Shown piece after piece: positions 37,232 through 57,584 of a stretch of 64,000 bases of DNA; the first letter of the stretch is position 1; the number at the start of each line of letters is the position of its first letter. Source of the DNA: Synechococcus sp. CC9605 (GTDB taxonomy: Bacteria > Cyanobacteriota > Cyanobacteriia > PCC-6307 > Cyanobiaceae); NCBI RefSeq assembly GCF_000012625.1, contig NC_007516.1, positions 1,984,001 through 2,048,000 on the forward strand, read 5' to 3'. A program made the translations under genes and the position numbers. Below the pieces are notes generated by a model, which saw only the letters and a program-made list of their open reading frames with translations, was not told where the DNA came from and did no database searches.

Positions 37232-38500
37232 TCAACGGCCGACATTCGACGGCATTGGCAAACCAAGTAAGCGGTACACCGAGACCGCATCCACAACCGG
37301 CTCAAACGGCAGCATGGCGTCGGTCATCGTGTCGGTGACCTTGGTGAAGGTGTTGCGGTCCACCACCACGACGTCGCCATTGCGCAGGGGCGGATTGTTG
37401 GCACTACTGAGGACAGCATTGGGCTCGTAGCGCAACTGCTTCACCGTGGGGCGTCCCTTTCGATCAATGCGGATCAGGTTCACGCGCTTCACACTGCCGC
37501 GTCGGGTGACTCCTCCGGAGGCAAGGATCGCGCTAGATAAAGGTGCATTCGAACCGATTTGGACCACGCCTGGGGCTAAAACCTCACCAACAACTTGCAC
37601 ATTGATTGCCGCCGGGGCGAAGTTCGAAGCAGAAGCTGTCAACAAGTCCAGATTGGTAGCTGTTTTCGCCTTGTGCACTCTGATGCTGTCGCCGTCATAG
37701 ATCAGAGGATTCGGGGCAAAACCTCCCTCCTTCAAAACGGTCAGATAGTCGAAAATGAAGCTCTGAGTTTGACCACCAGGGGCGGGAGAGGGGCGCAGCA
37801 GTTCCAATCGGCCCAGATCACCAGTCGCTGAAAGTCCGCCAGCTTTTTGAATCACATCCACCATGGTCGGCCAGCCGCCGCCATCGCTTCCAACACTTAC
37901 ATCAGAGAGATCGCTCGTCGAACCCAGGGATGCATCACCGTTGACAGGCAAAGTGAAAACACCTGGGCGAGCGACCTCGCCCGTGACCGTGACCCGAACC
38001 GGACGCTGTTTCACAAGGTCCAGGTAGACCAACGGTCGCCGCAGAAATCGGCTGTAACCGTCAGTAATACGTTGACGCGCTTCCTCAAGCGTCAATCCCC
38101 AAACTTCAACCGTTCCCAGTCGCGGCAGGTTGATGGTGCCATCGCTCAACACCTGAACCTCAGCCTCGTAACCATCGATCTTGAACACTGAGGTCACCAG
38201 CTGATCCCCAGGAGCAAGGCGATAGCGGTAACCCCTCGGAGGCAGGCCAGGAGTGGTTGGGAGCGGGGGCGGTGCCTGCAGCGCCAAGGTGGGCTGGGCC
38301 TCCACCTCCCACTCCATTGGGGCGGTCAACTTCGACTTCCGATTGCGCTTGGGCCAGTTCCTTGCAATCGATTCGTTCGTCTTAAGCCAGTTGATCCGCT
38401 CTTCAGCCCGAAGGCCTTCACCAAAAACCCCTGAGATCGAACAAAGAACTGCTGCTGCAACACCTGCGGTGAGACCTGTCTTTGTAAGGGGCATAACCAT
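37232..38500 (-). CDS. Polysaccharide export outer-membrane protein (OPX/Wza-KpsD-like, SLBB domains)
   Basis: The protein has 422 residues with an N-terminal signal sequence (LTAGVAAAVLCSISGVFG) but no clear lipobox. The Poly_export domain is YRLAPGDQLVTSVFKIDGYEAEVQVLSDGTINLPRLG. SLBB beta-grasp repeats follow (VTVTGEVARPGVFTLP and VQVVGEVLAPGVVQIG), with GDSIRVHKA and GDVVVVDRNTFT. OPX proteins form the outer-membrane exit of capsule export machines. It starts the capsule locus and is divergent from the acyltransferase gene. The matching ABC transporter (KpsMT) and PCP (KpsE) are not in the window. Confidence 0.92.
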   Translation of the reverse strand: MVMPLTKTGLTAGVAAAVLCSISGVFGEGLRAEERINWLKTNESIARNWPKRNRKSKLTAPMEWEVEAQPTLALQAPPPLPTTPGLPPRGYRYRLAPGDQLVTSVFKIDGYEAEVQVLSDGTINLPRLGTVEVWGLTLEEARQRITDGYSRFLRRPLVYLDLVKQRPVRVTVTGEVARPGVFTLPVNGDASLGSTSDLSDVSVGSDGGGWPTMVDVIQKAGGLSATGDLGRLELLRPSPAPGGQTQSFIFDYLTVLKEGGFAPNPLIYDGDSIRVHKAKTATNLDLLTASASNFAPAAINVQVVGEVLAPGVVQIGSNAPLSSAILASGGVTRRGSVKRVNLIRIDRKGRPTVKQLRYEPNAVLSSANNPPLRNGDVVVVDRNTFTKVTDTMTDAMLPFEPVVDAVSVYRLLGLPMPSNVGR

Positions 38501-38569: not shown

Positions 38570-39508
38570 ATGACGCAGACCGGACCATCAGCGCAGAGTG
38601 ACGTCCTGCTTCCTCACGGTTGGCGAGACGCCAATCACACGAGCAGCATGTTGTTCCGCCTCGACGGTCTAGAGCTTCATCTGATCCCCGGAGAAAAATT
38701 TAAAGTCGTCGCAGATGCCGTTGGCACACTGCGGGAATCCACCTACCGCCAACAGCTCTCCGGGTCAGGCAACACCCGGGACCTCGATGGCCGCGACTCG
38801 GCTTATGACCATCTGATCCTGTTGGAGCCCAGCAGCGGAGCCCTCGCCGGGTCCGCCCGGTTGCAATTCGTTCCTCAATTCATGGCCGCCGAGGAGCTCC
38901 CTGGTAGCCAACAGTCCTACCTGGAGCACGTCTATCCCGGCATCAAAGCGACGCTGGCGCAGCAAACACATCACGTGGAGATCGGTCGGGTTGCTCTAGC
39001 CCCACGATTTCAGCGCCAACCGCACTCTCTGATGGCTTTGTTCCGCGGAGGCCTCCTGATCGCAGCCCACTCGGGATTCAGCATCCTGCACGGATTGGTC
39101 TCTTACAACCACTTCGCCCACAGCGATGCCGTCAATGCAGCCTTTCTCAGTGCGTTGATGCGCCCTCCTTATCGCAGAACGAGCCCGGCATTACCGCCAC
39201 CACGACACCCGATCAACGCCATCCAGCCACGTAACACCCCCCACCCGATCAGCAACGTTCAGGCATTAGAGCTGGCTATCCGACAGGACCACAGCGAAGA
39301 CTTCCGTCTTCCTGTGCTGTTGCGCCAGTATTTCAACCTGATGGAAGCCAAGGTCTGCGACCTCTCCTTGGCACGGGATTTCAACCAGATCACGGAAATT
39401 TTGATGGCCGCCGATCTCTCACGCTTGCCGAAGGATCGCCTGGCCTTCTTCATCGACGTTGATCATCAACCCGTCTACCAGCAATTCAGCTGGTACCGAG
39501 GCAAGTGA
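38570..39508 (+). CDS. GNAT-type N-acyltransferase-like protein
   Basis: The protein has 312 residues. The central region resembles acyl-ACP-dependent GNAT N-acyltransferases (OlsB-like/autoinducer-synthase-like fold). It has DHLILLEPSSGALAGSARL for the core beta-strands, VEIGRVALAPRFQR for the acyl-donor-binding strand, and a C-terminal half with YFNLMEAKVCDLSLARDFN. It heads a plus-strand run GNAT - ACP - ketosynthase, so an acyl-ACP substrate from the next genes is likely (inference). It is divergent from the export-protein gene. Confidence 0.65.
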   Translation: MTQTGPSAQSDVLLPHGWRDANHTSSMLFRLDGLELHLIPGEKFKVVADAVGTLRESTYRQQLSGSGNTRDLDGRDSAYDHLILLEPSSGALAGSARLQFVPQFMAAEELPGSQQSYLEHVYPGIKATLAQQTHHVEIGRVALAPRFQRQPHSLMALFRGGLLIAAHSGFSILHGLVSYNHFAHSDAVNAAFLSALMRPPYRRTSPALPPPRHPINAIQPRNTPHPISNVQALELAIRQDHSEDFRLPVLLRQYFNLMEAKVCDLSLARDFNQITEILMAADLSRLPKDRLAFFIDVDHQPVYQQFSWYRGK

Positions 39509-39553
39509 TAAACGAAGCGGCACTGGTACTTTGGCTGGATCAAAAGGTTGGTG

Positions 39554-39838
39554 GTGTTGAGAGAGGGATCTCCCGATAAGCAAGAGCTAGAGGGCCGCCT
39601 CGTCGAGATCCTGCATCGCATTTCCGGCGCCGACCCTGCAGCGATCACCCCGGATGCCCGTCTGATGGAAGACATCGGAATTGATTCCTTGGGGTTTTAC
39701 GAAATCCTGATCGAGGCCGACACCTGTTTCGGTATTCGTATCCAGGAGGAGCAACTCCTGCAATTCAAGACGGTGGGTGATATTCAGAACCATCTGGCAT
39801 CGCTCGATATCGATCCCCCCAACGCCCAAACCGCCTAA
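39554..39838 (+). CDS. Acyl carrier protein, dedicated (second ACP)
   Basis: The protein has about 94 residues. The phosphopantetheine attachment site is S45 in DIGIDSLGFYEIL. It is longer and less acidic than FabI-pathway AcpP and lies outside the fab cluster, so it is probably specific to this locus. Several overlapping start codons exist (TTG 39548, GTG 39551, GTG 39554). The last is favoured because AAAGG lies 6 nt upstream. It ends 2 nt before the ketosynthase start, implying co-translation. Confidence 0.85.
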   Translation: MLREGSPDKQELEGRLVEILHRISGADPAAITPDARLMEDIGIDSLGFYEILIEADTCFGIRIQEEQLLQFKTVGDIQNHLASLDIDPPNAQTA

Positions 39839-39840
39839 CC

Positions 39841-41109
39841 ATGGCAGTACGGCAGCACATCTCCCAGCGGGTCTCGATCGTGGGCTGGGGTTCCGTATCA
39901 CCCCTGGGCTGTGACGCCGAATCAACCTGGGAAAGCGTCCTGGCGGAGCGCTCCGGCATCAGCTCCCTGACGGCAGACTGGAGCAAAGATCTACCGGTAC
40001 GCATTTCTGGATGCGTGCCCGTTGCCGCCACCCAATCCCTTGAGCCTCTGCTGCAACGGCGCTCTGACCGCTGCGCACAACTGGGTTTGCTGGCTGCTCG
40101 AAAGGCCTGGGCCATGGCCTCAGCAGCCATCGGAAGCATTGACCCAGCCCGAGTTGCTGTGGTGCTGGGGACCGGGATCGGCGGACTCCACACCATGCAT
40201 GAACAGCACAATCAGCTGACCCACGGAGGGCCGGCACGGGTCAATCCACTCACCGTGCCAATGCTGATCCCTGATGCGGCTTCTGGCCAAGTAGCCATCG
40301 ACCTAGGCCTTCACGGAGGTGCGCACACCCCAGTCTCGGCCTGCGCGTCGGGAGCTGAGGCAATGATGCTGGCCCAGATGCTGCTCAACGACAAGCGTGC
40401 CGATCTCGTGCTGGCCGGCGGCACCGAAGCACCCGTGAACCGGCTTGGGCTTGTCGGCTTCTCGGCCATGAGGGCTCTCTCCTGCAGAAACGATGCCCCT
40501 GAGCAGGCGTCCCGGCCTTACGGCAAAGACCGTGACGGGTTCGTGCTTTCGGAAGGAGCAGGAGTCCTAGCGATGATGCGAGAGGAAGACACCCCAAGAG
40601 GTTCAGCTCTTGGCTGGCAACTCGCCTGCGGCAGCAGCAGCGACGGCCATCACATCGTGGCACCAGAACCCCAAGGGATCCAGGCGAGTCGAGCCATTGA
40701 AGATGCTCTCAATCGTGCCGGAATTGAACCGCGGGATCTGTGCGCCGTTCAGGCCCACGCCACCGGCACCGTTCTGGGTGACCTCGCTGAAGCACGCTCC
40801 CTCCGAAGGAGTCTCGGACATGCCGCTGACCACCTCCCCGTGTTTGCACCCAAGGGACAACTCGGGCATTTACTGGGAGCAGCAGGAGCGGTTGAGGCAA
40901 TCATTGGGATTCAAGCCCTTCACAAAGGAATACTTCCAAGAACGATCAATTCAGACCCTCTAGATCCAGAAATCAACATCAATGTAACGACAGAAAAGCC
41001 TGTCAAATTAAAAAATACAAGCAAAGAACAATTTATGCTGAAAAATTCATTTGGATTTGGTGGTCACAATATCAGCATTGTTCTTTCCTCGAGCAGTAAA
41101 AATCTATAA
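39841..41109 (+). CDS. Beta-ketoacyl-ACP synthase (FabF/KAS II-like), dedicated
   Basis: The 422-residue thiolase-fold condensing enzyme has the complete Cys-His-His triad: C168 (VSACASGAEAM), H306 (QAHATGTVLGD) and H343 (KGQLGHLLGAAGAVE), plus the C-terminal NSFGFGGHN. It should elongate acyl chains on the adjacent ACP. It is divergent from housekeeping FabF. The last ~45 residues, from about 40,970, are encoded by sharply AT-rich DNA unlike the first 375, marking a recombination boundary inside the gene. Its 3' end overlaps the convergent acyltransferase gene by 38 nt. Confidence 0.88.
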   Translation: MAVRQHISQRVSIVGWGSVSPLGCDAESTWESVLAERSGISSLTADWSKDLPVRISGCVPVAATQSLEPLLQRRSDRCAQLGLLAARKAWAMASAAIGSIDPARVAVVLGTGIGGLHTMHEQHNQLTHGGPARVNPLTVPMLIPDAASGQVAIDLGLHGGAHTPVSACASGAEAMMLAQMLLNDKRADLVLAGGTEAPVNRLGLVGFSAMRALSCRNDAPEQASRPYGKDRDGFVLSEGAGVLAMMREEDTPRGSALGWQLACGSSSDGHHIVAPEPQGIQASRAIEDALNRAGIEPRDLCAVQAHATGTVLGDLAEARSLRRSLGHAADHLPVFAPKGQLGHLLGAAGAVEAIIGIQALHKGILPRTINSDPLDPEININVTTEKPVKLKNTSKEQFMLKNSFGFGGHNISIVLSSSSKNL

Positions 41110-41824
41110 CCGCAGGCTCAAATGACTTCTTTGGCAGACTGACTGGTATGGAATCTAAATCTTCCTCATAGAGCGAGCACGTTATCTCTGCCTCTGGAGC
41201 CATCAAGCGCTTCACCAAAATCGCAAAAGGACTGTAAAGATCATTTCTCGAAAGGCCAATATCTCCATATCTAAACACCCAAGGCGCAATACGTGTTGAA
41301 AATTTTCTTGCGAGAACTTGTGGGCTTCTTGAGGCACGCTGATAAATCGATGTCACAAGCGAGCCATTCGGGGCAATAATCATTTGCCCGTGCGTTGACA
41401 TGACGTCGAAAGACTTCAAAACAGATGCTCGCCTAGACTCCGAATCCATATGATCAAGAAGAATATGACCAGCGTTGCTGGCACAACGGTCAAAAAAAGG
41501 CAATATTTTTCCAAGATGCGAACTTGCTGTCGTGATACTAGGAATCCTCAAATAGCCCTGAATAATGAAGACATCCAAGGGGTTTTCATGATTATAGATA
41601 TGAACATATCCTCTCGCTGGTACCGACCAATCAAAATTGGACTTGACAACAACATTTACACCCAAAGATTTTAATAGTTGACGTGAAAAAACTGATGACA
41701 ACAGGGAAGCAGATTTTTTGTAGCCCAGCACCAGCAACGGGAGCTGAGCCAAATAAGCAAGATACGCACTAAGAAGCAAAAAAAGACGTGCAAACAACCT
41801 ACTAAAGACAGTGATTAGTCTCAT
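41072..41824 (-). CDS. PlsC-like acyltransferase, AT-rich
   Basis: The protein has 250 residues. An N-terminal membrane segment (LFLLLSAYLAYLAQLPLLVLGY) is followed by a glycerol-phosphate acyltransferase-like domain. The HX4D motif is present as H79-ENPL-D84, and a variant of the second motif appears as PNGSLV. It resembles lysophosphatidate acyltransferases that add an acyl group to lysolipids. Base composition is far more AT-rich than the neighbouring GC-rich genes. The following gene (minus strand, upstream) carries a related but degenerate domain at its C terminus, so the two are paralogs. Confidence 0.72.
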   Translation of the reverse strand: MRLITVFSRLFARLFLLLSAYLAYLAQLPLLVLGYKKSASLLSSVFSRQLLKSLGVNVVVKSNFDWSVPARGYVHIYNHENPLDVFIIQGYLRIPSITTASSHLGKILPFFDRCASNAGHILLDHMDSESRRASVLKSFDVMSTHGQMIIAPNGSLVTSIYQRASRSPQVLARKFSTRIAPWVFRYGDIGLSRNDLYSPFAILVKRLMAPEAEITCSLYEEDLDSIPVSLPKKSFEPAVIDFYCSRKEQC

Positions 41825-41855
41825 ACAATCGATAAAATTGACACTTTAATCGACA

Positions 41856-43808
41856 TCAACTAAAAAACATCGACTCAACTTTCATCACAAATTCTTCGGC
41901 ATTCATACCTGAAGGACAGTTGATAGCAGACGAACGAGCTCGTCTAGCCCTGACAAGCAAGACCGGCGAAGCGAGACGAGAACAAAAAAGTCTCAAGAAT
42001 TTATCCACAGTGTTAATATTAAAATCAACGCTGTTTTCATAAACAAAAATCCAAGGAACGATCAACAAATTGCATGAACGACAAACGGACCAAAAACTCT
42101 TCACAAGCTCTCGATTATTCGCAGCAAAGGGAATGCAAATTTGCCTACCCCCGACACACAGATCAGTATAAGAATTTATATTCTCATTACTTTCGTCAAT
42201 CGACAGATCAACACCAGAACATCTCTCGAAACGCAAATTTCCTGAATCTGCAAACAAAGTGTTTAGCCCAAAAGAACCCCGAGCAACGAGCAAATCAAAC
42301 CAGCTGGATTGATCATAAACTTGAATAATGTTGAATCCAACACGCTCACAAACCTGACTGTCATCAACAATCACCTGGACGCCAAGGGATCGCAACAGGA
42401 ACGCTGACAGAATTGAAAATAATTTGTCAGCAGAATCACGCCATTTCATCCACACACATACATTCATCAGCGCGAACAAAGCCAGAGCCAAGGTGAGACA
42501 GAAAAGTCGGCAGAAAATTCTCCCTAACAACTGCAAGGCATTAACTGAATTTTCAGGAATTAAGACCGGCAGGCGTGGGCTGGGGGGGAGCTGACGGGCC
42601 TCCGGACCGATTGGGAAGGTGGTGCGGAAGGGGAAGTCCCCATCGAAATTGCCATTCACCTGGGTGGTGAGCACCAGATGGTTATAGAAGCGATAGAACA
42701 GGGCTCGATTGCTAGGCTGAGGATCACACCAAAAGCCGTCGAGAGGTTTCTGATCCGTCAATCCCTCCAGGTTGTAGAAGGTGTGCCCCATCGTCTTGGT
42801 GGGCACCGCATGGAACAGGGCTTGCAGCCCCACGGTGCTATTCACCGTGATCACCCCACGGCAAGTGCGCAGATAGCGGCTGAGGGGGCCATCGTGGAAG
42901 TAGTGCACCCGGCCTGTGACGCCGTATTGCTTAGCAAGCAGACGGATTAAAGAGGCGTAGTTGTTGTAGCCCCGATCCCGGGGATGGTGCTTGAAGGCCA
43001 GGTGGTCGGAGGCGTGCGCATGGCCGGCAAAGGATCGAATCACGTCTTCGATGAAGTCGTGCATGCCCCGGTAAGGCGACCCCATCTGAATCTGGGAATC
43101 ACTGGAGACCTGCAGAACAGCCAGGAAGAACGAGCAGTGTTCAAGCAACCGCTGCTTCACCGATTGTTCCTGCCAGCGGTAAAGCCAGTAGCGCCAGCTT
43201 CCACGCACTTGACACCAGAGAAACCTGGGCGAGGGCTGAAGTTTGTGCTCACCCTCGATGATCGGGTAGCGGGTGAAGGCGTGCTGAATGAACGTCGGGG
43301 CCTTCCAGGCTTTGCGCCAGCGCCAACCGGGATCAAGAACGATGTTCTGGGGCAGCTGGTCGCAGGGGGGCAGCTCCCGATAAAAAATCGCTGGCTTGTT
43401 GAGATTGGAGCGGGCATTGACCCGATCCCGCTCGAGAGTCACATAGTTGGGGCGCAGATAACCCAGCTCAAACACCCAGGCCTCAACCCCAAGGTTGCGT
43501 GCTTCTTCAATGGCGATTCGATGGGGAATGATGAAATCGCCATACATAAAAATGTGGCGAATGCCCCGTTCCTCAATCAGCCGACGCAGGAAGGGACGCC
43601 AGCTGTCCATCCCCTTGCTGTAAGACACACAAACATCGGCCGGGAAGCCGAATTCCCTCAGGGGGAACGCCACCTTGGTCACCGGGATGCCACAGCCCTG
43701 CAGGTAGCGGCAGAAACGAGCAAAGAACAGACCGATGGGGCCCATCAACAGCAGCACAGGCCCGTCGATTCGCACCTGTACGAGAGCTGGCGCCCGTCCC
43801 CTGCCCAA
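41856..43808 (-). CDS. kpsS: KpsS-like capsule Kdo transferase fused to a degenerate acyltransferase domain
   Basis: The protein has up to 650 residues. Residues ~15-415 are a capsule synthesis (KpsS-type) domain: VLLLMGPIGLFFARFCRYL, IFMYGDFIIPHR, FKHHPRDRG (272-280) and VNSTVGLQALFHAVPTKTMG. In E. coli KpsS adds the first Kdo to a phosphatidylglycerol anchor. Residues ~420-650, encoded by AT-rich DNA, contain a membrane segment and a region matching the adjacent PlsC-like protein (FLLRSLGVQVIV versus QLLKSLGVNVVV). Its HX4D position reads Q500-SSWF-D505, so the catalytic His is lost. The TTG start at 43808 is weak; GTG at 43775 is an alternative. Confidence 0.82.
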   Translation of the reverse strand: MGRGRAPALVQVRIDGPVLLLMGPIGLFFARFCRYLQGCGIPVTKVAFPLREFGFPADVCVSYSKGMDSWRPFLRRLIEERGIRHIFMYGDFIIPHRIAIEEARNLGVEAWVFELGYLRPNYVTLERDRVNARSNLNKPAIFYRELPPCDQLPQNIVLDPGWRWRKAWKAPTFIQHAFTRYPIIEGEHKLQPSPRFLWCQVRGSWRYWLYRWQEQSVKQRLLEHCSFFLAVLQVSSDSQIQMGSPYRGMHDFIEDVIRSFAGHAHASDHLAFKHHPRDRGYNNYASLIRLLAKQYGVTGRVHYFHDGPLSRYLRTCRGVITVNSTVGLQALFHAVPTKTMGHTFYNLEGLTDQKPLDGFWCDPQPSNRALFYRFYNHLVLTTQVNGNFDGDFPFRTTFPIGPEARQLPPSPRLPVLIPENSVNALQLLGRIFCRLFCLTLALALFALMNVCVWMKWRDSADKLFSILSAFLLRSLGVQVIVDDSQVCERVGFNIIQVYDQSSWFDLLVARGSFGLNTLFADSGNLRFERCSGVDLSIDESNENINSYTDLCVGGRQICIPFAANNRELVKSFWSVCRSCNLLIVPWIFVYENSVDFNINTVDKFLRLFCSRLASPVLLVRARRARSSAINCPSGMNAEEFVMKVESMFFS

Positions 43809-43848: not shown

Positions 43849-45846
43849 TCAACGGCGCCGAAGCCGTCCCCAGTGGCGGAAGAGGGCCTGCACAAGTGTG
43901 CGCCGCTGCGGAGGAGCGGCACGCCAAGCCACCAGTTCATCGATAGCCTGCTCGGGGGTGATGAACCAGCCGCTGTTTCGGCTGACGTAACGGGGATAGT
44001 CGATCAGGGCGGCATGAACCAGCTCGTCCAAAGAAAGCTGCCGCTGACGACGACCGCAACGCTCGAAGTCGTGGGTCAGACCCCAGCCGGCATAGAACGG
44101 CAGGCCCCAGCAATGCACCTCAAGACCGCGCAGCAACGCCTCAAACCCTGCCAGGGAGGTGAGCACATGCAGTGCATCGATCTGGGTGAACAGCTGCTGG
44201 ATCGACCCCTGGGGCAGCACCTCATCGCAGAGCGCAGCGGCGGCGTCTTCGCCGGCACCGGCACGGCAGAGCCCTGCCACCACATCGGGATGCGGTTTGT
44301 ACACCAGGTAGGCCTCAGGCTCCGCTGCCCGCACCGCTTCCAACAACGCCCTGTTGGTACGCAGCCCGGGGGCGCCGTAGCGGATCGAGGCATCGCTTTC
44401 CACCTGACCGATCACCAACACCACCCGGTGCGCTCCAGCAGGACGAAGCCAAGGTTCCGCCTGCAGGTTGTATTTGGTGATCGCCTCCTGCACCAACCGC
44501 TGACGCAACGCCGCGGCCCGCTGGCATTGGGCCGACGTCCACCGCTGCGTCGCCAGGAGCGATTCCAGATCGCTCGGCCGGGTGGCGTCGTAATAAACGC
44601 CTTGGTGATCCACCACCCAGGACACCGGATCCACCAGATCAGCCCCGAGTCCAACCGAGCGCAGAAAGCCGTCCTCCACCTGCAGCACCGGCAGCTGCCG
44701 CCGCGCCGCAGCCTCAAGCAACCGCGGCTTGGCACGGCGACCCCAGACCACCACAGCATCAACACCTTGGGGAATCCGTCGCCATGGAGCGCGAAAGCGC
44801 AGCTGACTGCCCGCCAGAAAGCGGCGCAGGTTGCGCTGTTTCCAGGGGGTGAAGCCGAAGGCCACACAGCGCCGAGGCTGTTGGGCCTGGAGGCGCCGCT
44901 GCAAGCCGATCGCACCCATCAAGGTTTCGATACGACAGGGCTGATGGAGCTGGGGATCGATGCAGCGGCAGGCTCCCACCAGAACGGCATGCACCAGGGC
45001 CTCCAGACTGGCCCCCTGGCGTCGCCGGGCCGGGGCGTCGCATCGGTCATGGGTCAGCCCCCAGCCGCCGTAAAACGGCATGCCGAAGCAGTGCACCGGG
45101 CGACCCCAAAGCAAAGCCTCAAACCCCATCTGGGAGGTGACCACATAGACCGCCCGTGCCCGCTCGAGCAGACGGGCCGGATGGCCACCGTCCGCACTGA
45201 GACGAACACGGGGGTGAGCCAGATCTTCGGCGGTGAAATGGCCCCTGGAACGCCCGGAGATCACATCCGGATGCACCTTCACCACCACCGTGCAGTCTGG
45301 ATGGTCCTGCAAAGCAGCCTTAAGCATCCGCTGGAAGCAGCTGGCATCCGCCAGGCCAAGTGCAATCGATCGATCCCCTGCGGATTGATCCACCACCAAC
45401 ACGTAGGACTCCTGCGGCGCCTCCGCCTCCCGCGGGGGGTTGACCTTGCTGAGCCGCTGCTCGCACCACAGCCGTTGCAGAGCGCGTGCGCGGTTGGCCT
45501 CAGTCACCGTGATCGGCGCCGCAATCAACTGCTCGATCCGACTCGGGGCCGTTGCATCGAAATGCACCCCCAGCTCATCCACCAGCAGAGCGAGCGGTGG
45601 ATGCTCCCGGCCCTTGGCCACCGAGCGAAGGAGACCGTCCTCGAGGTGCCACACCGGTAGATCCCACTGTCGAGCCAGTCGCTCGACCCGCAACGCACTG
45701 GGTCGCCGCCCCCAGGCCAACAAAACATCCACATCGCGGCGGCGGCCCGGCACCAAACGGTCCGGTGACAGCAGCTGCGCCAATGTGCGGTGCGCGAGCA
45801 TCCCCCGGGCCGGAACCCCGAGTCGCAGAGCAGCAGGCCTGGTCAT
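43849..45846 (-). CDS. kpsC: KpsC-like dual Kdo transferase for capsule lipid linker
   Basis: The protein has about 665 residues from ATG at 45846 (a GTG at 45876 would add ten). Two tandem copies of the capsule synthesis domain are clear. Copy 1 has HLEDGLLRS, KVHPDVISG and TSQMGFEALLWGRPVHCFG. Copy 2 has QVEDGFLRSVGLG, YKPHPDVVAG and TSLAGFEALLRGLEVHCWG, each followed by MPFYGGWGLTHD or LPFYAGWGLTHD. KpsC is a dual glycosyltransferase that extends the poly-Kdo linker on lysophosphatidylglycerol in ABC-dependent capsules. It lies just upstream of kpsS on the same strand and starts 32 nt from the divergent neuA-like gene. Confidence 0.94.
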   Translation of the reverse strand: MTRPAALRLGVPARGMLAHRTLAQLLSPDRLVPGRRRDVDVLLAWGRRPSALRVERLARQWDLPVWHLEDGLLRSVAKGREHPPLALLVDELGVHFDATAPSRIEQLIAAPITVTEANRARALQRLWCEQRLSKVNPPREAEAPQESYVLVVDQSAGDRSIALGLADASCFQRMLKAALQDHPDCTVVVKVHPDVISGRSRGHFTAEDLAHPRVRLSADGGHPARLLERARAVYVVTSQMGFEALLWGRPVHCFGMPFYGGWGLTHDRCDAPARRRQGASLEALVHAVLVGACRCIDPQLHQPCRIETLMGAIGLQRRLQAQQPRRCVAFGFTPWKQRNLRRFLAGSQLRFRAPWRRIPQGVDAVVVWGRRAKPRLLEAAARRQLPVLQVEDGFLRSVGLGADLVDPVSWVVDHQGVYYDATRPSDLESLLATQRWTSAQCQRAAALRQRLVQEAITKYNLQAEPWLRPAGAHRVVLVIGQVESDASIRYGAPGLRTNRALLEAVRAAEPEAYLVYKPHPDVVAGLCRAGAGEDAAAALCDEVLPQGSIQQLFTQIDALHVLTSLAGFEALLRGLEVHCWGLPFYAGWGLTHDFERCGRRQRQLSLDELVHAALIDYPRYVSRNSGWFITPEQAIDELVAWRAAPPQRRTLVQALFRHWGRLRRR

Positions 45847-45878
45847 CGGGTAAGACAGGTCGCACTGAATCCTCACCG

Positions 45879-46561: not shown

Positions 46562-47893
46562 TTGCCCAGCAAGGTTTCGGAGTCGATGGCGCCCGCAGAA
46601 TCCAAGCGCCTCGTTGGCCGCAAGATTGCGGCCGTCGCCTGCTTCGACTCCTTCGGCAAGCTGGCGATGACCATGCTGGCGTCCTGCCGGCGGGAGGGTG
46701 CCGATGTCACCTTGCTGCTGCTGGAGCTGAACAACCGGGCCCTCTCCAGGCGGCAACGCCTCGAAATTCGGCGGATCGACCCGAAAATCCGCATCGAAAA
46801 ACACAGCTGGAACGACCTGCGTCAGCTCTGCGGCGCCATGCCGGGGAATGTCGACGCTCTGATCCTGGGCCTGGATGGCCAACGCAGCCGCGATGCGCTG
46901 CTGCAACTGAAAAACATCTGGGTGGATCAGGACCAACGCCCACGCCTGATTGGCGCTTACCCAGGAATCCTGTTCCGCTTCGGCCTCGAGGGAATGATGG
47001 ATCGTTCAGGCGCTGACCTGCTCTGTCTCAACAGTGCAGACGATTTGGCCCTTTACGGCCGTGGCCGCAAGGCCCTGGGCCTTGATAGCAGCAATGCCGT
47101 GGTCACTGGACTGCCGATTCTCTGGCAAACGAAGCCGCGTTCTGAAACACCGGACACCCCCTCGATCGTGTTTTTTGAACAGCCTTCGATTCCGGTGCAC
47201 CCACTGCAGCGCAGGTTCCTCTGTGATCAGATCAAGGAGCTTGCCGAAGCCTGGCCCGATCACCCCGTGATCTTCAAACCCCGAACGTCGAGCATCGAGA
47301 GCACCCTGCATCGACGCCACGGGGAGATGGCCAGCGTGATCGACAAGATGACGCGCGATCAGCCAAATCTGAAACTCAGTTTCAAGCCCGCCACTCGACT
47401 TCTGCGCCAGTGCGGCTGCGCCATCACCGTCTCTTCCACAGCTGCCATGGAATCCATGGCGATGGGAATCAGCACCCGCATTGTCGGTGATCTGGGGGTG
47501 ACCGAAACCCTCGGCAACCATTTTTTCGCCAGTTCGGGCGCCATCGCCAGTTTCGCTGCGATCAAAGCAAACCCCTTCGAGCTTATCCACGACGTTCATT
47601 GGCTCGAACAGCAGGGCTTGCAGCGCGACGGTGAGGATCGCTTCATCACGGCTCTGGTTGACAAGCTGACCAGACCGGCAGCCCCCCTCGGCGTGCTCAA
47701 TCATGGCCCTCTGAGCTGGGGCAGCAGTGCCTGGCAGAAGGCTGCGTTGAAGAACGGAGGCCGGCGGATGCTGAGCAGTGGTGGTGCCCGCTCCAGCCAG
47801 CGCAAACGTCACCGCACCCGTCGCATTGTGCGCAGCCTGCGTGACGGTGTGGTGGGATTCGGTTGGCTCTCCAAGCTGTTGCGGGAACGATGA
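46562..47893 (+). CDS. Putative glycosyltransferase (DUF6716-like), copy 1
   Basis: The protein has 443 residues and no transmembrane segment. It appears to belong to a family of uncharacterised glycosyltransferases found next to neuA/neuB genes. Shared features with the next two genes include an N-terminal strand near VACFDSFGKLAMTML, ALILGLDGQRSRDAL, GADLLCLNS, VIFKPR, and a C-terminal VSSTAAMESMAMGISTRIVGDLG. The layout resembles GT-B polysialyltransferase-like proteins that use CMP-sugars; the donor is inferred from the adjacent neuA and neuB. The basic C-terminal tail (SSQRKRHRTRR) may bind membrane. Its stop overlaps the next start. Confidence 0.7.
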   Translation: MPSKVSESMAPAESKRLVGRKIAAVACFDSFGKLAMTMLASCRREGADVTLLLLELNNRALSRRQRLEIRRIDPKIRIEKHSWNDLRQLCGAMPGNVDALILGLDGQRSRDALLQLKNIWVDQDQRPRLIGAYPGILFRFGLEGMMDRSGADLLCLNSADDLALYGRGRKALGLDSSNAVVTGLPILWQTKPRSETPDTPSIVFFEQPSIPVHPLQRRFLCDQIKELAEAWPDHPVIFKPRTSSIESTLHRRHGEMASVIDKMTRDQPNLKLSFKPATRLLRQCGCAITVSSTAAMESMAMGISTRIVGDLGVTETLGNHFFASSGAIASFAAIKANPFELIHDVHWLEQQGLQRDGEDRFITALVDKLTRPAAPLGVLNHGPLSWGSSAWQKAALKNGGRRMLSSGGARSSQRKRHRTRRIVRSLRDGVVGFGWLSKLLRER

Positions 47894-48918
47894 CGTTCCT
47901 GCTGATCAGCGATGGAGTGCTGGAGCATTCCGCCTGCTGGCTGATGGCGGAAGCGCTGGAGCAACAGGGGCTGCGCTGCATCACGGCAGGGCCTCCGCTG
48001 CAGGGACACCAACCTCTGACCACACCCGCACCTCAGCTGAGCATCGACCTGGCTCAGCTGCCCGCTCACCCTTTGTTGGAGCAGGTCACAGCCATCGGCC
48101 TCTTCCTGCAGAACCCGGACGAGATCCCACGCTTCATCAAGACCTATCAAAACCTCTGCAGGGCAGTCGGACGGATGCCAGCGGCGTTGTTCAGCGGCCC
48201 CCTCGTGCCTTTGGTGGGGGATGCCCTGATTCAGGATCTCAGCCTGCGCCTGGGGTGTGATCTTCTGCTGGTGAGCGGCGAGCACCAACGCCGACAACTC
48301 CGATCGCTCACCTTCAACTGGCCCATAAGCCTTCGTGTTCCCCCTGTGATCTGCACAGGCTTCTGGTTCCCTCAGGACGCACCATGTGCCCCAACCCAGA
48401 AGCCCCTGCTGTTGGCCTTGATCCAGGAGCGGATCCCCACCCATCTGGGAGCCCATGAGCATTTGCTTCGCCAACTCAACAGCTGGGCGCGGCAACGGCC
48501 GAACTGGACCGTGATGGTGCAACACGACCACAGCTGGAGCGCAACGACAACGCTGATGGCCAGCGATGAACCCTTGGCCGACAACCTGTTGGAAGCGGCC
48601 CCTGGCCAACTTCTGCCACTGCTGGGGTCCTGCACCGCCTGCCTCACGGTGAGCTCGCCATGGAGCCTGGCGGCGATGGCCTGGGGCCGGATCCCGATCA
48701 TCGTGGGCGACTACGGCATCCACGATGAACAGAACACAACTGGGTTCTTCGGCTGCGGTGCCATGCATCGCCTTCGAAGCATCCCCCACCTCGATGCCGT
48801 CAGGGAGCTGCCAATGGCGAACCAAGCCTGGCTCGATGGCAATGGCGCCGACATCACCGACGGGCCGCAGCGTCTGGCCAGGGCCCTGAGCGACCTGGCG
48901 CTCCGCGAGGAACCATGA
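47890..48918 (+). CDS. Putative glycosyltransferase (DUF6716-like), copy 2
   Basis: The protein has 342 residues from ATG at 47890, overlapping the previous stop (ATGA). It is the shortest of three tandem paralogs. Shared segments are FLLISDGVLEHSACWLMAEAL, AIGLFLQNPDEIPRF, GCDLLLVSGEHQRRQL, VMVQHDHSW and VSSPWSLAAMAWGRIPIIVGDYG. It is probably a glycosyltransferase of the capsule locus. Tight coupling to both neighbours suggests the three act on the same polymer. Confidence 0.68.
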   Translation: MTFLLISDGVLEHSACWLMAEALEQQGLRCITAGPPLQGHQPLTTPAPQLSIDLAQLPAHPLLEQVTAIGLFLQNPDEIPRFIKTYQNLCRAVGRMPAALFSGPLVPLVGDALIQDLSLRLGCDLLLVSGEHQRRQLRSLTFNWPISLRVPPVICTGFWFPQDAPCAPTQKPLLLALIQERIPTHLGAHEHLLRQLNSWARQRPNWTVMVQHDHSWSATTTLMASDEPLADNLLEAAPGQLLPLLGSCTACLTVSSPWSLAAMAWGRIPIIVGDYGIHDEQNTTGFFGCGAMHRLRSIPHLDAVRELPMANQAWLDGNGADITDGPQRLARALSDLALREEP

Positions 48919-50234
48919 CAGCAACTGCGAGCCAGCCCACGCTCCATGTGCTGCTGATCGCGGACAGCGACAGCCAGCTGCTGGCCTGTGAGGCCCTTTG
49001 CAGTGCTCCGACCGCGCTGAACGTTCATTGGACTTTCAGTGTGATTCCACGGGACGGAACACCCCAGGCTTTGTTGAAACGCCTGGCCGAGCGAGGAACT
49101 CTGCGCCACCAAAGCCTGGCTCGGTTGCTGAGGGATCGGCGGCTGCAGCACTTTGATGCCATCGGCGTTTTCCTGACGGGCAGCAAGATCAACGACATCC
49201 GTCTCGCCCTGCAACGGAATCGCCAGCGCCCCTTGCTGTTCTGTGGGTTCAACGGTGTGGTGCTCGACCACTTCATCGAAGGGGTGAGCTGGCGAATGGG
49301 TTACGACCTGATATGCCTCAGCGGCCCGCGCGATCGGGACGCCCTGGAGCAACTGGTAACCGGAACCCCGTTTGCACAGCAGCGCACCGTGCTGACCGGC
49401 CTGCGGCGCAACGCCCCTTGCACAGACTGCACTCCCTTAGCGGAACGCCCGCGGCGACTGGTGTTTGCCGAACAGGTGATCATGCCCGCGACCAGCAGCG
49501 AACGGGCCCAACTCGTGCGCCTGCTGAGCGATCTGGCCCGACGTTCTCCCAACTGGGACGTGGTGATCAAACCCCGGATCGCCCCCGGCGATGCCACGTT
49601 TCATGATGTCGAGACCCACATCAGCACCACCCTGCAGCAGACCCTGGGGGTGCCTCCCACCAATCTGCGACTGGACTACCGACCACTGCCAGTGCTGTTG
49701 AAGCAGGCCCGGCTGCTGGCCACTCTCTCCTCAACCGCTTTTTTCGACGCCCTCGACTTCGGCTGCCGGGCGATTGCCATCAGTGATTTGGGCCTGCAGC
49801 CGAACTATGGAGGCCACGTTTATGCCGGCAGCGGTGTGTGGCGCTCCCTGGAGGCCATCCCCAACCTGGATGCCCTTGATGCCGAGGGGCCATCCCCGGA
49901 TCCGCGCTGGCTGGAATGGATGGGCTATGGCCAGCAGTTCAGTCCCTCCGCGCTTCTGGAGGCCCTGAACGAACAAAAACACCGGACACCGGAGCCCCCG
50001 CCCAGCCGCATTGGATACCCGGGCAATGCCCAGTCCAGCTTCAACCAGTTGCGCTTGGGAGCCGAAGCCGCCATCGCGAGTGGAGATTGGACCAGTGCTC
50101 GGGAGCTGCTCTGGCAAGCAACCATGATGCGACCGCTGCACCGCGGCGTTGCCCGCCGCCATTGGGCCGTCCGCCAAGCCAATCCGCTGATACGACAGAT
50201 CTCACTGCTGATGTCGTACAGAGATCTGAAGTAA
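48915..50234 (+). CDS. Putative glycosyltransferase (DUF6716-like), copy 3
   Basis: The protein has 439 residues, with its ATG overlapping the previous stop by 4 nt. Paralog segments are LHVLLIADSDSQLLACEAL, AIGVFLTGSKINDIRLAL, GYDLICLSGPRDRDAL, VVIKPR and LSSTAFFDALDFGCRAIAISDLG. A ~60-residue C-terminal addition (ASGDWTSARELLWQATMMRPLHRGVARR) looks like a short TPR-like helical hairpin. It is separated from the neuB fusion by 39 nt. Confidence 0.7.
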   Translation: MTATASQPTLHVLLIADSDSQLLACEALCSAPTALNVHWTFSVIPRDGTPQALLKRLAERGTLRHQSLARLLRDRRLQHFDAIGVFLTGSKINDIRLALQRNRQRPLLFCGFNGVVLDHFIEGVSWRMGYDLICLSGPRDRDALEQLVTGTPFAQQRTVLTGLRRNAPCTDCTPLAERPRRLVFAEQVIMPATSSERAQLVRLLSDLARRSPNWDVVIKPRIAPGDATFHDVETHISTTLQQTLGVPPTNLRLDYRPLPVLLKQARLLATLSSTAFFDALDFGCRAIAISDLGLQPNYGGHVYAGSGVWRSLEAIPNLDALDAEGPSPDPRWLEWMGYGQQFSPSALLEALNEQKHRTPEPPPSRIGYPGNAQSSFNQLRLGAEAAIASGDWTSARELLWQATMMRPLHRGVARRHWAVRQANPLIRQISLLMSYRDLK

Positions 50235-50273: not shown

Positions 50274-52559
50274 GTGAGAGGCATCCTGATTGAGCGAAAT
50301 TTCACCCAGTTCGTTGTCTTCGCGGAAGACAGCATCCTCTCGGCACTCAGCAAGATCACGGCGAACCAGTCCCGCCTGATTTTTGTTGTCTCGGAAAGTG
50401 GCATTCTCCAGGGCGTTCTCACCGATGGTGACTTCCGACGCTGGATTGCCGGATGCGGCGAGATTGATCTGAACCGGCCGGTCACTGCGGCCATGAACGC
50501 CAACTGCCGGTCGGCCGTCGAAGGCACCAGCGCCAGTGATCTGAGTGCCCTGCTCAATTCCCGCATCATTGCGCTGCCGCTGCTGGACAGCCATGGCCGC
50601 ATCGTCGCCGTGGCCCGACGCGCCACCGACGGGCTCCAGATCGGTTCCCACCGCATCGGCGATGACGCCCCCTGCTTTCTGATCGCCGAGATCGGCAACA
50701 ACCACAACGGCGATCTCGACACCGCTCTTCAACTGATCGATGCCGCCCACGCCGCAGGGGCGGACTGCGCCAAGTTCCAGATGCGGGACATGAGCCGGCT
50801 GTATCGCAATTCAGGCGATAGCAACGACATGGCCTCCGATCTGGGCACCCAGTACACCCTGGATCTGCTCGAGCGCTTCCAACTCAGTGACGATGAGCTG
50901 TTCCGCTGCTTTGACCATGCCGCCAGCAAAGGCTTGGTACCTCTCTGCACCCCTTGGGATGAAACGAGCCTCGAGAAGCTCAACCGCTGGGGGATGGAAG
51001 GCTTCAAGGTGGCGTCGGCGGATTTCACCAACCACGCTTTTCTCTCCAGCCTGGCGGAGACCGGCAAACCCCTGATCTGCTCAACCGGCATGGCTTCGGA
51101 AGTGGAGATCCGCTCCGGCATCCGCCACCTCCAAAACGAGGGAGCCGGTTACGTGCTGCTGCACTGCAATTCCACGTATCCCACCCCCTTCAAGGACGTC
51201 AATCTGCGCTACCTCGAGCGGCTGCGCGACCTGGCCGAGGCTCCCGTGGGCTATTCCGGCCATGAACGGGGCATTGAAGTGCCGATTGCCGCCGCCGCCC
51301 TCGGCGCCGTGGTGATCGAGAAACACATCACCCTCGATCGCTCTATGGAAGGCAACGACCACAAGGTGAGCCTCCTGCCCAATGAATTCGCCCAGATGAT
51401 CCACGGCATTCGCCGGGTGGAAGAGTCGATGGGCAGCAGCGGCGAGCGCAGCATCAGCCAGGGCGAAATGATGAACCGCGAAGTGCTGGCCAAGAGTCTC
51501 GTCGCCAGATGCGACGTGCCTGCCGGCACGGAGATCACCGAGGCGATGGTGGGCATCCAGAGCCCGGGGCAAGGCCTGCAGCCCAACCGTCTTGCCGACC
51601 TCATTGGCAAGACGCTGCCGGTGAGCAAAGCCGCCGGCGATTTTTTCTTTCCCTCAGACCTTGAAACCCCGGCCGCTACGCCGCGCGCCTACCGATTCCA
51701 ACACCGCTTTGGCCTACCGGTTCGTTATCACGACATCGAGAGCTTTGCTGCCAGCAGCAATCTCGACCTTGTTGAAATCCATCTCAGCTACAAGGATCTC
51801 GAGATCAACCTCGATGAAGTGCTGCCGACAAAGCAGCCGATAGGCCTGGTGGTGCATGCCCCCGAATTGTTTGCTGGGGATCACACCCTCGACCTCTGCA
51901 GCGCTGATGGCGACTACCGCCGCCATTCGATTGCAGAACTCCAGCGCGTGGTCGACATCTCTCGTGACCTGCGAAATCGTTTCGACTGCCCCGATCCCGT
52001 TCTACTGGTGACCAACGTCGGGGGATTCTCAGAGCACCACCATCTCGAGCGCGCGGACTTGCAATCGCTACGGCAACGCCTGATCGAGAGCCTTCAGCAG
52101 ATCAACACCTCTGACGAGGTGGAAATCATTCCCCAAACCATGCCCCCCTTCCCCTGGCACTTCGGGGGGCAGAGATATCACAACCTCTTCGTCGACACCG
52201 ACTTCATCGAGGAATTCTGCAAGGGAACCGGCATGCGCGTCTGCCTGGATGCCTCCCACTCCAAGCTCGCCTGCACCCACCTCAATGCCTCCTTCAGTGG
52301 CTTCCTCAGGGCGATCCTTCCGTTCACAGCCCACCTGCATCTGGCTGACGCCAAGGACGTGGATGGTGAAGGGCTGCAGATCCACGACGGTGAGATCGAC
52401 TGGGTGCAGCTGTTTGCCCTGATGGGTCAACTGGCCCCCGAAGCAAGCTTCATCCCCGAAATCTGGCAAGGCCATAAGAACAACGGGGAAGGCGCCTGGC
52501 TCGCCCTTGAGCGCCTTGAAGGCTGTGTTGATTTGAGCCAGCAGCGGCATGTCGCGTGA
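50274..52559 (+). CDS. neuB: NeuB-type nonulosonate synthase fused to N-terminal CBS and C-terminal TIM-barrel domains
   Basis: This 761-residue multidomain protein condenses PEP with an N-acylhexosamine to make a nonulosonic acid. CBS-like pair: about residues 1-120 (VVSESGILQGVLTDGDFRRW, LPLLDSHGRIVAV). NeuB barrel: about 133-385, with IAEIGNNHNGDLD, KFQM, KVASADFTN and GYSGHERGI, then EKHITLD. SAF domain: about 405-460 (LAKSLVARCDVPAGTEIT). Residues ~475-761 form a second barrel resembling sugar-phosphate isomerase/AP endonuclease-2 proteins, with acidic and His residues such as CLDASHSKLA, HLHLADAKDVDGEG and FIPEIWQGH. Such a barrel may modify or epimerise the substrate; this is inference. 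The start codon is GTG or ATG near 50274. Confidence 0.88.
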   Translation: MRGILIERNFTQFVVFAEDSILSALSKITANQSRLIFVVSESGILQGVLTDGDFRRWIAGCGEIDLNRPVTAAMNANCRSAVEGTSASDLSALLNSRIIALPLLDSHGRIVAVARRATDGLQIGSHRIGDDAPCFLIAEIGNNHNGDLDTALQLIDAAHAAGADCAKFQMRDMSRLYRNSGDSNDMASDLGTQYTLDLLERFQLSDDELFRCFDHAASKGLVPLCTPWDETSLEKLNRWGMEGFKVASADFTNHAFLSSLAETGKPLICSTGMASEVEIRSGIRHLQNEGAGYVLLHCNSTYPTPFKDVNLRYLERLRDLAEAPVGYSGHERGIEVPIAAAALGAVVIEKHITLDRSMEGNDHKVSLLPNEFAQMIHGIRRVEESMGSSGERSISQGEMMNREVLAKSLVARCDVPAGTEITEAMVGIQSPGQGLQPNRLADLIGKTLPVSKAAGDFFFPSDLETPAATPRAYRFQHRFGLPVRYHDIESFAASSNLDLVEIHLSYKDLEINLDEVLPTKQPIGLVVHAPELFAGDHTLDLCSADGDYRRHSIAELQRVVDISRDLRNRFDCPDPVLLVTNVGGFSEHHHLERADLQSLRQRLIESLQQINTSDEVEIIPQTMPPFPWHFGGQRYHNLFVDTDFIEEFCKGTGMRVCLDASHSKLACTHLNASFSGFLRAILPFTAHLHLADAKDVDGEGLQIHDGEIDWVQLFALMGQLAPEASFIPEIWQGHKNNGEGAWLALERLEGCVDLSQQRHVA

Positions 52560-57158: not shown

Positions 57159-57584
57159 ATGAAGAGCAGGCTGGATCGTATCGATGCACTTATCAGCGAA
57201 GGATATACGCTAAATAAAATATGGGGATTTTACCCAGACCTAAAAACATCGGCAGGGAAATCTGTAGATATTTTTGGCTCACTGTTCCGCCTTGCTGGAC
57301 CCGCTGGTTTTTCCTGGGTTGCTTTTTTCTTCCCCTGGGCTGTCTGCGTGCAAATCAGAGAGTGGCCATTTTTTTATTCATTATTCATTATTCATTATTC
57401 ATTATTCATTATTCATTATTCATTATTCATTATTCATTATTCATTATTCATTATTCATTATTCATTATTCATTATTCATTATTCATTATTCATTTTTTCG
57501 CTCTTCGATACAATCTTAGCCATCTTCTTTGAGGCATCAACCAGCATCGCAAGCTTGCTAAATTTACTAACCTGTTACTGGTAG
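57159..57584 (+). CDS. Hypothetical membrane protein interrupted by a heptanucleotide repeat
   Basis: From ATG 57159 the frame gives ~72 residues (LDRIDALISEGYTLNKIWG, then a hydrophobic stretch SWVAFFFPWAVCVQI). Next comes a 40-residue repeat of the heptapeptide YSLFIIH encoded by 17 copies of TTATTCA, and a final hydrophobic tail. All three forward frames stay open across the repeat. Adding or losing one copy would change the C-terminal frame to one of two shorter tails. Whether the protein is made is unknown. I do not recognise the family. Confidence 0.4.
   Translation: MKSRLDRIDALISEGYTLNKIWGFYPDLKTSAGKSVDIFGSLFRLAGPAGFSWVAFFFPWAVCVQIREWPFFYSLFIIHYSLFIIHYSLFIIHYSLFIIHYSLFIIHYSLFIFSLFDTILAIFFEASTSIASLLNLLTCYW
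57374..57492. repeat. Perfect tandem repeat, 17 x 7 bp (TTATTCA)
   Basis: Seventeen uninterrupted copies of TTATTCA occupy 119 bp. Because 7 is not a multiple of 3, copy-number change by slippage alters the reading frame of the enclosing ORF. Perfect conservation of the copies implies recent expansion. Confidence 0.97.

Follow-up and report, generated by a model that had tools for sequence, protein, structure and literature searches.

To our knowledge, the supply of the acceptor to KpsS is unsettled in the well-studied capsules. A gene in the window, by which we mean the whole 64,000-nucleotide stretch of DNA analysed here, raises this question in a particular form. The kpsS::pseudo-plsC gene (41856..43808, minus strand, 650 amino acids with a TTG start) encodes a KpsS-type domain joined to a domain that resembles an acyltransferase and appears to have lost its catalytic residues. 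What was the acyltransferase doing on KpsS, and why would it be kept there in a form that no longer transfers acyl groups?

KpsS is fused to a domain with a PlsC fold

The N-terminal domain (residues 1-395; 42624..43808, minus strand) is of the beta-Kdo transferase type and, with an omega of 0.035, evolves under strong purifying selection. The NCBIfam model NF050054 matched residues 17-388 over model positions 14-387 of 390 with 283 bits, which is below its equivalog cut-off of 600 bits, and PF05159 matched residues 86-388 with 190 bits. Judged by these profiles, residues ~17-390 form a full-length KpsS-type domain for which beta-Kdo transfer activity is predicted. The first-pass annotation had placed a complete KpsS domain at residues 15-415; the domain is indeed complete, and that boundary was slightly too long, as the KpsS match stops at residue 388. 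The kpsC gene (43849..45876, minus strand, 675 amino acids, PF05159 286 bits) adjoins kpsS and lies directly upstream of it in complete loci, with the same gene order in relatives.

A linker separates the KpsS domain from the C-terminal domain, which begins at residue ~416-420 and extends to residue 650 (residues 416-650; 41859..42563, minus strand) and whose assignment as a dead PlsC-fold domain comes from profile comparison, a structural model and motif loss. Residues ~420-650 had been noted to resemble the product of the adjacent gene, a PlsC-like acyltransferase of 250 amino acids (41072..41824, minus strand) that has an intact HX4D motif and a PNGS block III and matches PF01553 with 31.2 bits, above the cut-off of 23. 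BLASTP between the two sequences gave an E-value of 2e-8 at 23% identity, in agreement with that observation. Because PF01553 found no match in the window's dead domain, as opposed to 17 of 21 members that do match, we used fold and profile comparison instead. When the four dead domains that we found were compared with 25 live domains by hhalign, the profile-profile alignment covered 233 columns with 99.8% probability and an E-value of 2e-30. An AlphaFold model of the dead domain had a mean pLDDT of 79 and a pTM of 0.76, with a bias towards the fold of intact homologues that are included in the underlying alignment. With this model, Foldseek returned the Thermotoga PlsC (5kym) as the sole match with E < 0.001, and VIA-align placed 5kym on top (Z 11.9, 197 residues aligned), followed by PatA, plant GPAT and LpxM, all of one superfamily. 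The separate paralog, modelled likewise, reached a pLDDT of 93 and a Z of 15.7 to 5kym. Sequence profiles and the predicted structure thus confirmed that the C-terminal domain descends from an acyltransferase and has kept the PlsC fold, as first proposed.

We reject an assembly artefact or a chance similarity: the closed genome, that of a marine Synechococcus judging by its relatives, is a single contig of 2,510,659 bases, the same fused dead architecture occurs in three other genomes, one of them 79% identical in the C-terminal domain, and the homology has the E-value given above.

The catalytic parts of the fused acyltransferase are lost

The former HX4D motif of the fused domain (42294..42311, minus strand) now reads Q500-SSWF-D505, with Gln instead of His at residue 500 and the Asp kept, whereas the separate paralog has H79 and D84. 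Both readings agree with the earlier description, and the loss is in fact wider than the catalytic His. Live forms have ARNAGSAVLDHR as block II and APNGSLVTP as block III; both blocks are missing from this domain and from the other three dead domains, and the model is unstructured at the former block II (pLDDT < 50, model residues 109-130). The spacing from HX4D to PW is 77-79 residues in all four dead domains and 96 in the intact fused and separate proteins, except for one separate protein with 95 and three rows with 114, in which the script had caught a later PW. A deletion of 17-19 residues is therefore common to all four dead domains, and this shared deletion makes a single ancestral loss likely. 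Asp505 and the VPW core motif are kept in all four. From the motifs and the model, we infer with high confidence that the C-terminal domain has lost acyl transfer.

The fusion with an intact acyltransferase is the normal form

Among 386 cyanobacterial genomes we found 11 KpsS proteins, all 11 in frames of 655-739 codons that are long enough for the fusion, and among 148 relatives surveyed the gene was present in 29 genomes. All 25 named loci, which were found via the live domain, are fused. Of the 46 fused rows, in which some genomes appear twice, 40 have kept HX4D. Four of the six exceptions are the dead domains of genomes G000, G003, G022 and G026; the fifth is a truncated domain in G064, and in the sixth row a base is unread. 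Since all KpsS frames are of fusion length and HX4D is mostly intact, these sequences indicate that the fusion of KpsS with an intact PlsC domain is an ancient and normal architecture in picocyanobacteria, and that the dead form is the exception, seen only in the window's genome and three relatives. The view of the fusion as a dead-domain oddity, taken in the first-pass annotation, found no support in that form: a survey of KpsS proteins for the same C-terminal domain found the fusion to be widespread in cyanobacterial KpsS, with catalytic motifs intact in the fused domain of nearly all relatives. We likewise rejected the dead domain as an oddity of the window's genome alone, as the survey found the architecture in three other genomes. 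We found no description of a KpsS-acyltransferase fusion in the open-access literature on KpsS with acyltransferases or with cyanobacteria.

Three states were found among the relatives. Most have only a fused intact domain; G015 and G028 have a fused intact domain and a separate PlsC; and the four genomes with a dead fusion all have a separate PlsC gene with intact motifs directly downstream of it. The states look like a series, from fused only through fused plus separate to dead fused plus separate. In a tree of the domains, the four dead domains group with full support, though on long branches; as long branches meet in it, this phylogeny does not firmly place the separate genes with respect to the fused ones. 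One ancestral loss behind the four dead domains is the simplest and likely reading of the sequences.

In G064, the PlsC domain on KpsS is independently truncated (L092, 5744-7627), with the HX4D region eroded to LLNDLPLVG. By its sequence this is a second, separate loss. No separate PlsC of the same family was detectable in that genome, and loss thus does not appear to require a replacement.

Some further loci deserve mention. A scan of genome contigs with the intact-domain motifs gave 25 matches, all of which look cyanobacterial. One record labelled as a Bifidobacterium breve MAG (L128) holds a cyanobacterial capsule locus and is probably a misassigned or misbinned contig. In a single-cell genome (L100, 6721-10785; L122, 4671-8735), KpsC, KpsS and PlsC are read as one frame of 1354 codons, and the final 20 KpsC residues lie in another frame, so that a frameshift or sequencing error is likely.

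Composition and recombination

Window positions 40900-42560 run from the 3' end of a FabF gene through the separate PlsC gene to the dead domain, and over them the GC content falls from ~0.58-0.63 to ~0.40-0.45. The dead domain has a GC content of ~0.40-0.44 against 0.58 in the KpsS part, and GC3 falls strongly in the dead domains, whereas live fused domains have a GC content at or above that of their own KpsS part. In addition, dS in the dead domain and the separate gene is greater than in KpsS. Trees of the flanking genes place the live G010 with the dead G000 and G003, and the live G009 with the dead G022 (weak support). Sequence comparison makes an exchange of the segment between species by recombination likely. 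A single recombined cassette running from the dead domain through the separate plsC into the 3' end of FabF would fit the low GC, the raised dS and the mixing of dead and live species in the flanking-gene trees. Against a single cassette, windows along FabF showed no allele shared among the dead species.

The dead domain is under relaxed selection

In codon models, KpsS had the lowest omega (0.035-0.04), followed by live fused domains (0.067), the separate genes (0.13) and the dead domains (0.23). The faster evolution of the dead than of the live domains, the large fall in GC3, the missing catalytic blocks and the even more eroded domain of G064 would all be expected of a relic in slow decay, in which the separate gene took over, nothing keeps the domain and its loss is still to come. 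We consider such a relic unlikely. Omega = 1 was rejected for the dead domains (2dlnL 116), part of this selection possibly predating the loss if the loss was separate in each lineage, and no stop or frameshift was found in the dead domain across the four species. The closest pair is G000 and G003, in both of which the domain is already dead. Their 103 changes include 56 non-synonymous ones, whereas neutrality would predict 72.9, and 0 of 5000 neutral draws was as low; the neutral draws for this pair alone had ~5 stops and none was seen. Constraint is also concentrated in two core stretches, with an omega of 0.10 at residues 461-508 and 0.135 at residues 583-650, compared with 0.31 in the region of the former blocks II and III and 0.54 in a helix pair. 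The dead domain is relaxed yet not neutral, its core being held while the former active site and the membrane helices are freer. Because few parts are less constrained than the membrane-helix pair, a pure membrane-anchor role is disfavoured.

The regional pattern also bears on the idea, put forward in the first-pass annotation, that the dead domain binds the lipid acceptor or presents it to KpsS. It would agree with the retention of the PlsC fold and, in each of the four dead domains, of Asp505 and the VPW core motif. Block III of PlsC enzymes, however, contacts the acceptor; it is gone together with block II, the place of which is unstructured in the model, and the ex-catalytic stretch is weakly constrained in comparison with the core. 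The idea is accordingly weak, and we regard it as improbable; the pattern is better explained by a role in cis, structural or in docking.

A different possibility is that the dead domain became a pseudoenzyme partner, which binds the separate PlsC protein and activates or positions it. The separate gene lies next to every one of the four dead fusions, and some conserved residues suggest divided roles. Among the 103 conserved columns of live marine fusions, the dead domains have lost 37 that the separate proteins keep, most of them near the active site; 9 show the reverse pattern, among them R473, D482, D483, S484, L507 and R639 (G010 numbering). This hints at divided roles, although common descent alone could explain the nine, and a 2x2 test for divided roles of the conserved residues found no association (p = 1). 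Moreover, G064 has a dead domain and no such partner. We hold this possibility to be less than probable.

It appears, by a narrow balance of our judgement, that catalysis moved to the separate gene and that the fused copy was retained as a module of KpsS with a structural or docking function and no catalysis. According to this proposal, the ancestor had the bifunctional KpsS::PlsC enzyme that the survey showed to be the normal picocyanobacterial form, and in an ancestor of the window's genome and its three relatives a separate PlsC paralog would have lain just downstream. The catalytic His and blocks II and III of the fused acyltransferase disappeared, likely only once, and the separate protein, with its intact motifs, now probably performs the acyl transfer. 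The dead domain would most likely hold KpsS at the membrane or against partner proteins, and such docking may keep Kdo transfer coupled to the synthesis of an acylated anchor.

The capsule locus contains predicted genes for lipid synthesis

Around kpsS, the window encodes KpsC, an outer-membrane polysaccharide export protein of the OPX/KpsD-Wza type (37232..38500, minus strand; PF02563, PF10531), a CMP-sugar synthetase, three DUF6716 putative glycosyltransferases, NeuB and a sulfotransferase. The three DUF6716 genes are consecutive (46562-50234) and adjoin the NeuB gene, in an order kept across the genus. A protein of 761 amino acids (50274-52559) combines CBS, NeuB, SAF and a xylose-isomerase-like TIM barrel, and at 57374-57494 the 7-base unit TTATTCA forms a perfect array of 17 repeats.

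The locus also has three genes on the plus strand for a GNAT-fold amino-acid N-acyltransferase of the OlsB/GlsB/OlsF-C-terminus type (38570..39508, PF13444), an acyl carrier protein with a DSL attachment site (39548..39838, PF00550 42.5 bits) and a FabF-type ketoacyl-ACP synthase with active-site Cys and His motifs (39841..41109). All 14 N-acyltransferase homologues match the C-terminal N-acyltransferase part of OlsF, and 13 of the 14 match GlsB, in each case below the curated cut-offs; the window's protein scores 64 bits with the OlsF part (cut-off 620) and 22.5 bits with GlsB (cut-off 300), which points to a related family and leaves its function putative. A sequence search with the N-acyltransferase against the PDB found no relative. 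The N-acyltransferase is a constant companion in complete loci, and the acyl carrier protein and FabF-type synthase occur in marine and some freshwater loci and are missing from others. In the freshwater loci L127, L128, L130, L131 and L133-L136, KpsS::PlsC and the N-acyltransferase lie side by side without an adjacent FabF or acyl carrier protein; L128 and L133 are not long enough for KpsC to be seen. From such loci, the minimal conserved set is taken to be KpsC, KpsS::PlsC, the N-acyltransferase and the OPX protein.

In aminolipid synthesis, an OlsB-type N-acyltransferase is paired with a PF01553 O-acyltransferase (PMC11631085). Since this pairing recurs here and the locus has its own N-acyltransferase, acyl carrier protein and ketoacyl synthase, gene content and analogy suggest that the capsule anchor may be made locally instead of being taken from phosphatidylglycerol. 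The PlsC domain could equally re-acylate a Kdo-bearing lyso-phosphatidylglycerol. As a tentative model, possible rather than probable, we propose that the group-2-like capsules of picocyanobacteria have a lipid of their own as a base. The OlsB/GlsB-like enzyme, the acyl carrier protein and the ketoacyl synthase might make, for example, an N-acyl amino acid lipid, which the KpsS-fused PlsC would O-acylate, giving a physical coupling between synthesis of the anchor and its first glycosylation. In the window's lineage these steps would be uncoupled, with the old domain left as a scaffold.

With KpsS fused to an acyltransferase and an N-acyltransferase next to it, the supply of the acceptor becomes open to experiment in marine bacteria that are abundant. 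In the dead form, nature has in effect inactivated one domain, and the intermediate states can still be seen in relatives.

Comparison with known systems

The fold of PlsC and OlsA acyltransferases (PF01553; 5kym) is found in the dead domain, and their HX4D motif is shared by the separate gene and the live fusions; unlike these enzymes, the dead domain has neither the His nor blocks II and III and has no PF01553 match. The OlsB/OlsA and OlsF systems of aminolipid synthesis (PMC11631085, PMC12493201) use an N-acyltransferase of a related family and a PF01553 O-acyltransferase, but here the pair is tied to KpsS and KpsC, and an aminolipid product is putative. The Vi antigen of Salmonella Typhi, in which the capsule locus supplies its own acylated anchor (VexE; PMC12220298), is a precedent for such an arrangement, although Vi is without KpsS and KpsC and its anchor is a diacyl-HexNAc.

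The KpsS of E. coli uses (lyso-)phosphatidylglycerol as the acceptor for the first beta-Kdo, and the group 2/3 capsules, which depend on an ABC transporter, likewise have a KpsS-family domain beside kpsC (PMC7694667, PMC12220298). Two things set the present locus apart from those capsules: a PlsC-fold domain extends its KpsS, and it encodes an N-acyltransferase, an acyl carrier protein and a ketoacyl synthase of its own. In marine Synechococcus, the kps clusters Syn-eCAG_008/009, with genes closest to E. coli group 2/3 kps, are described as enriched in iron-replete waters (PMC10119275). They are very probably of the same locus type as the window's, and the passages of that paper on these two clusters make no mention of the fusion, a dead domain or lipid genes. 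Compared with those passages, in which the kps clusters themselves are already described (PMC10119275), what is new in the capsule locus is the constant company of the GNAT-fold N-acyltransferase.
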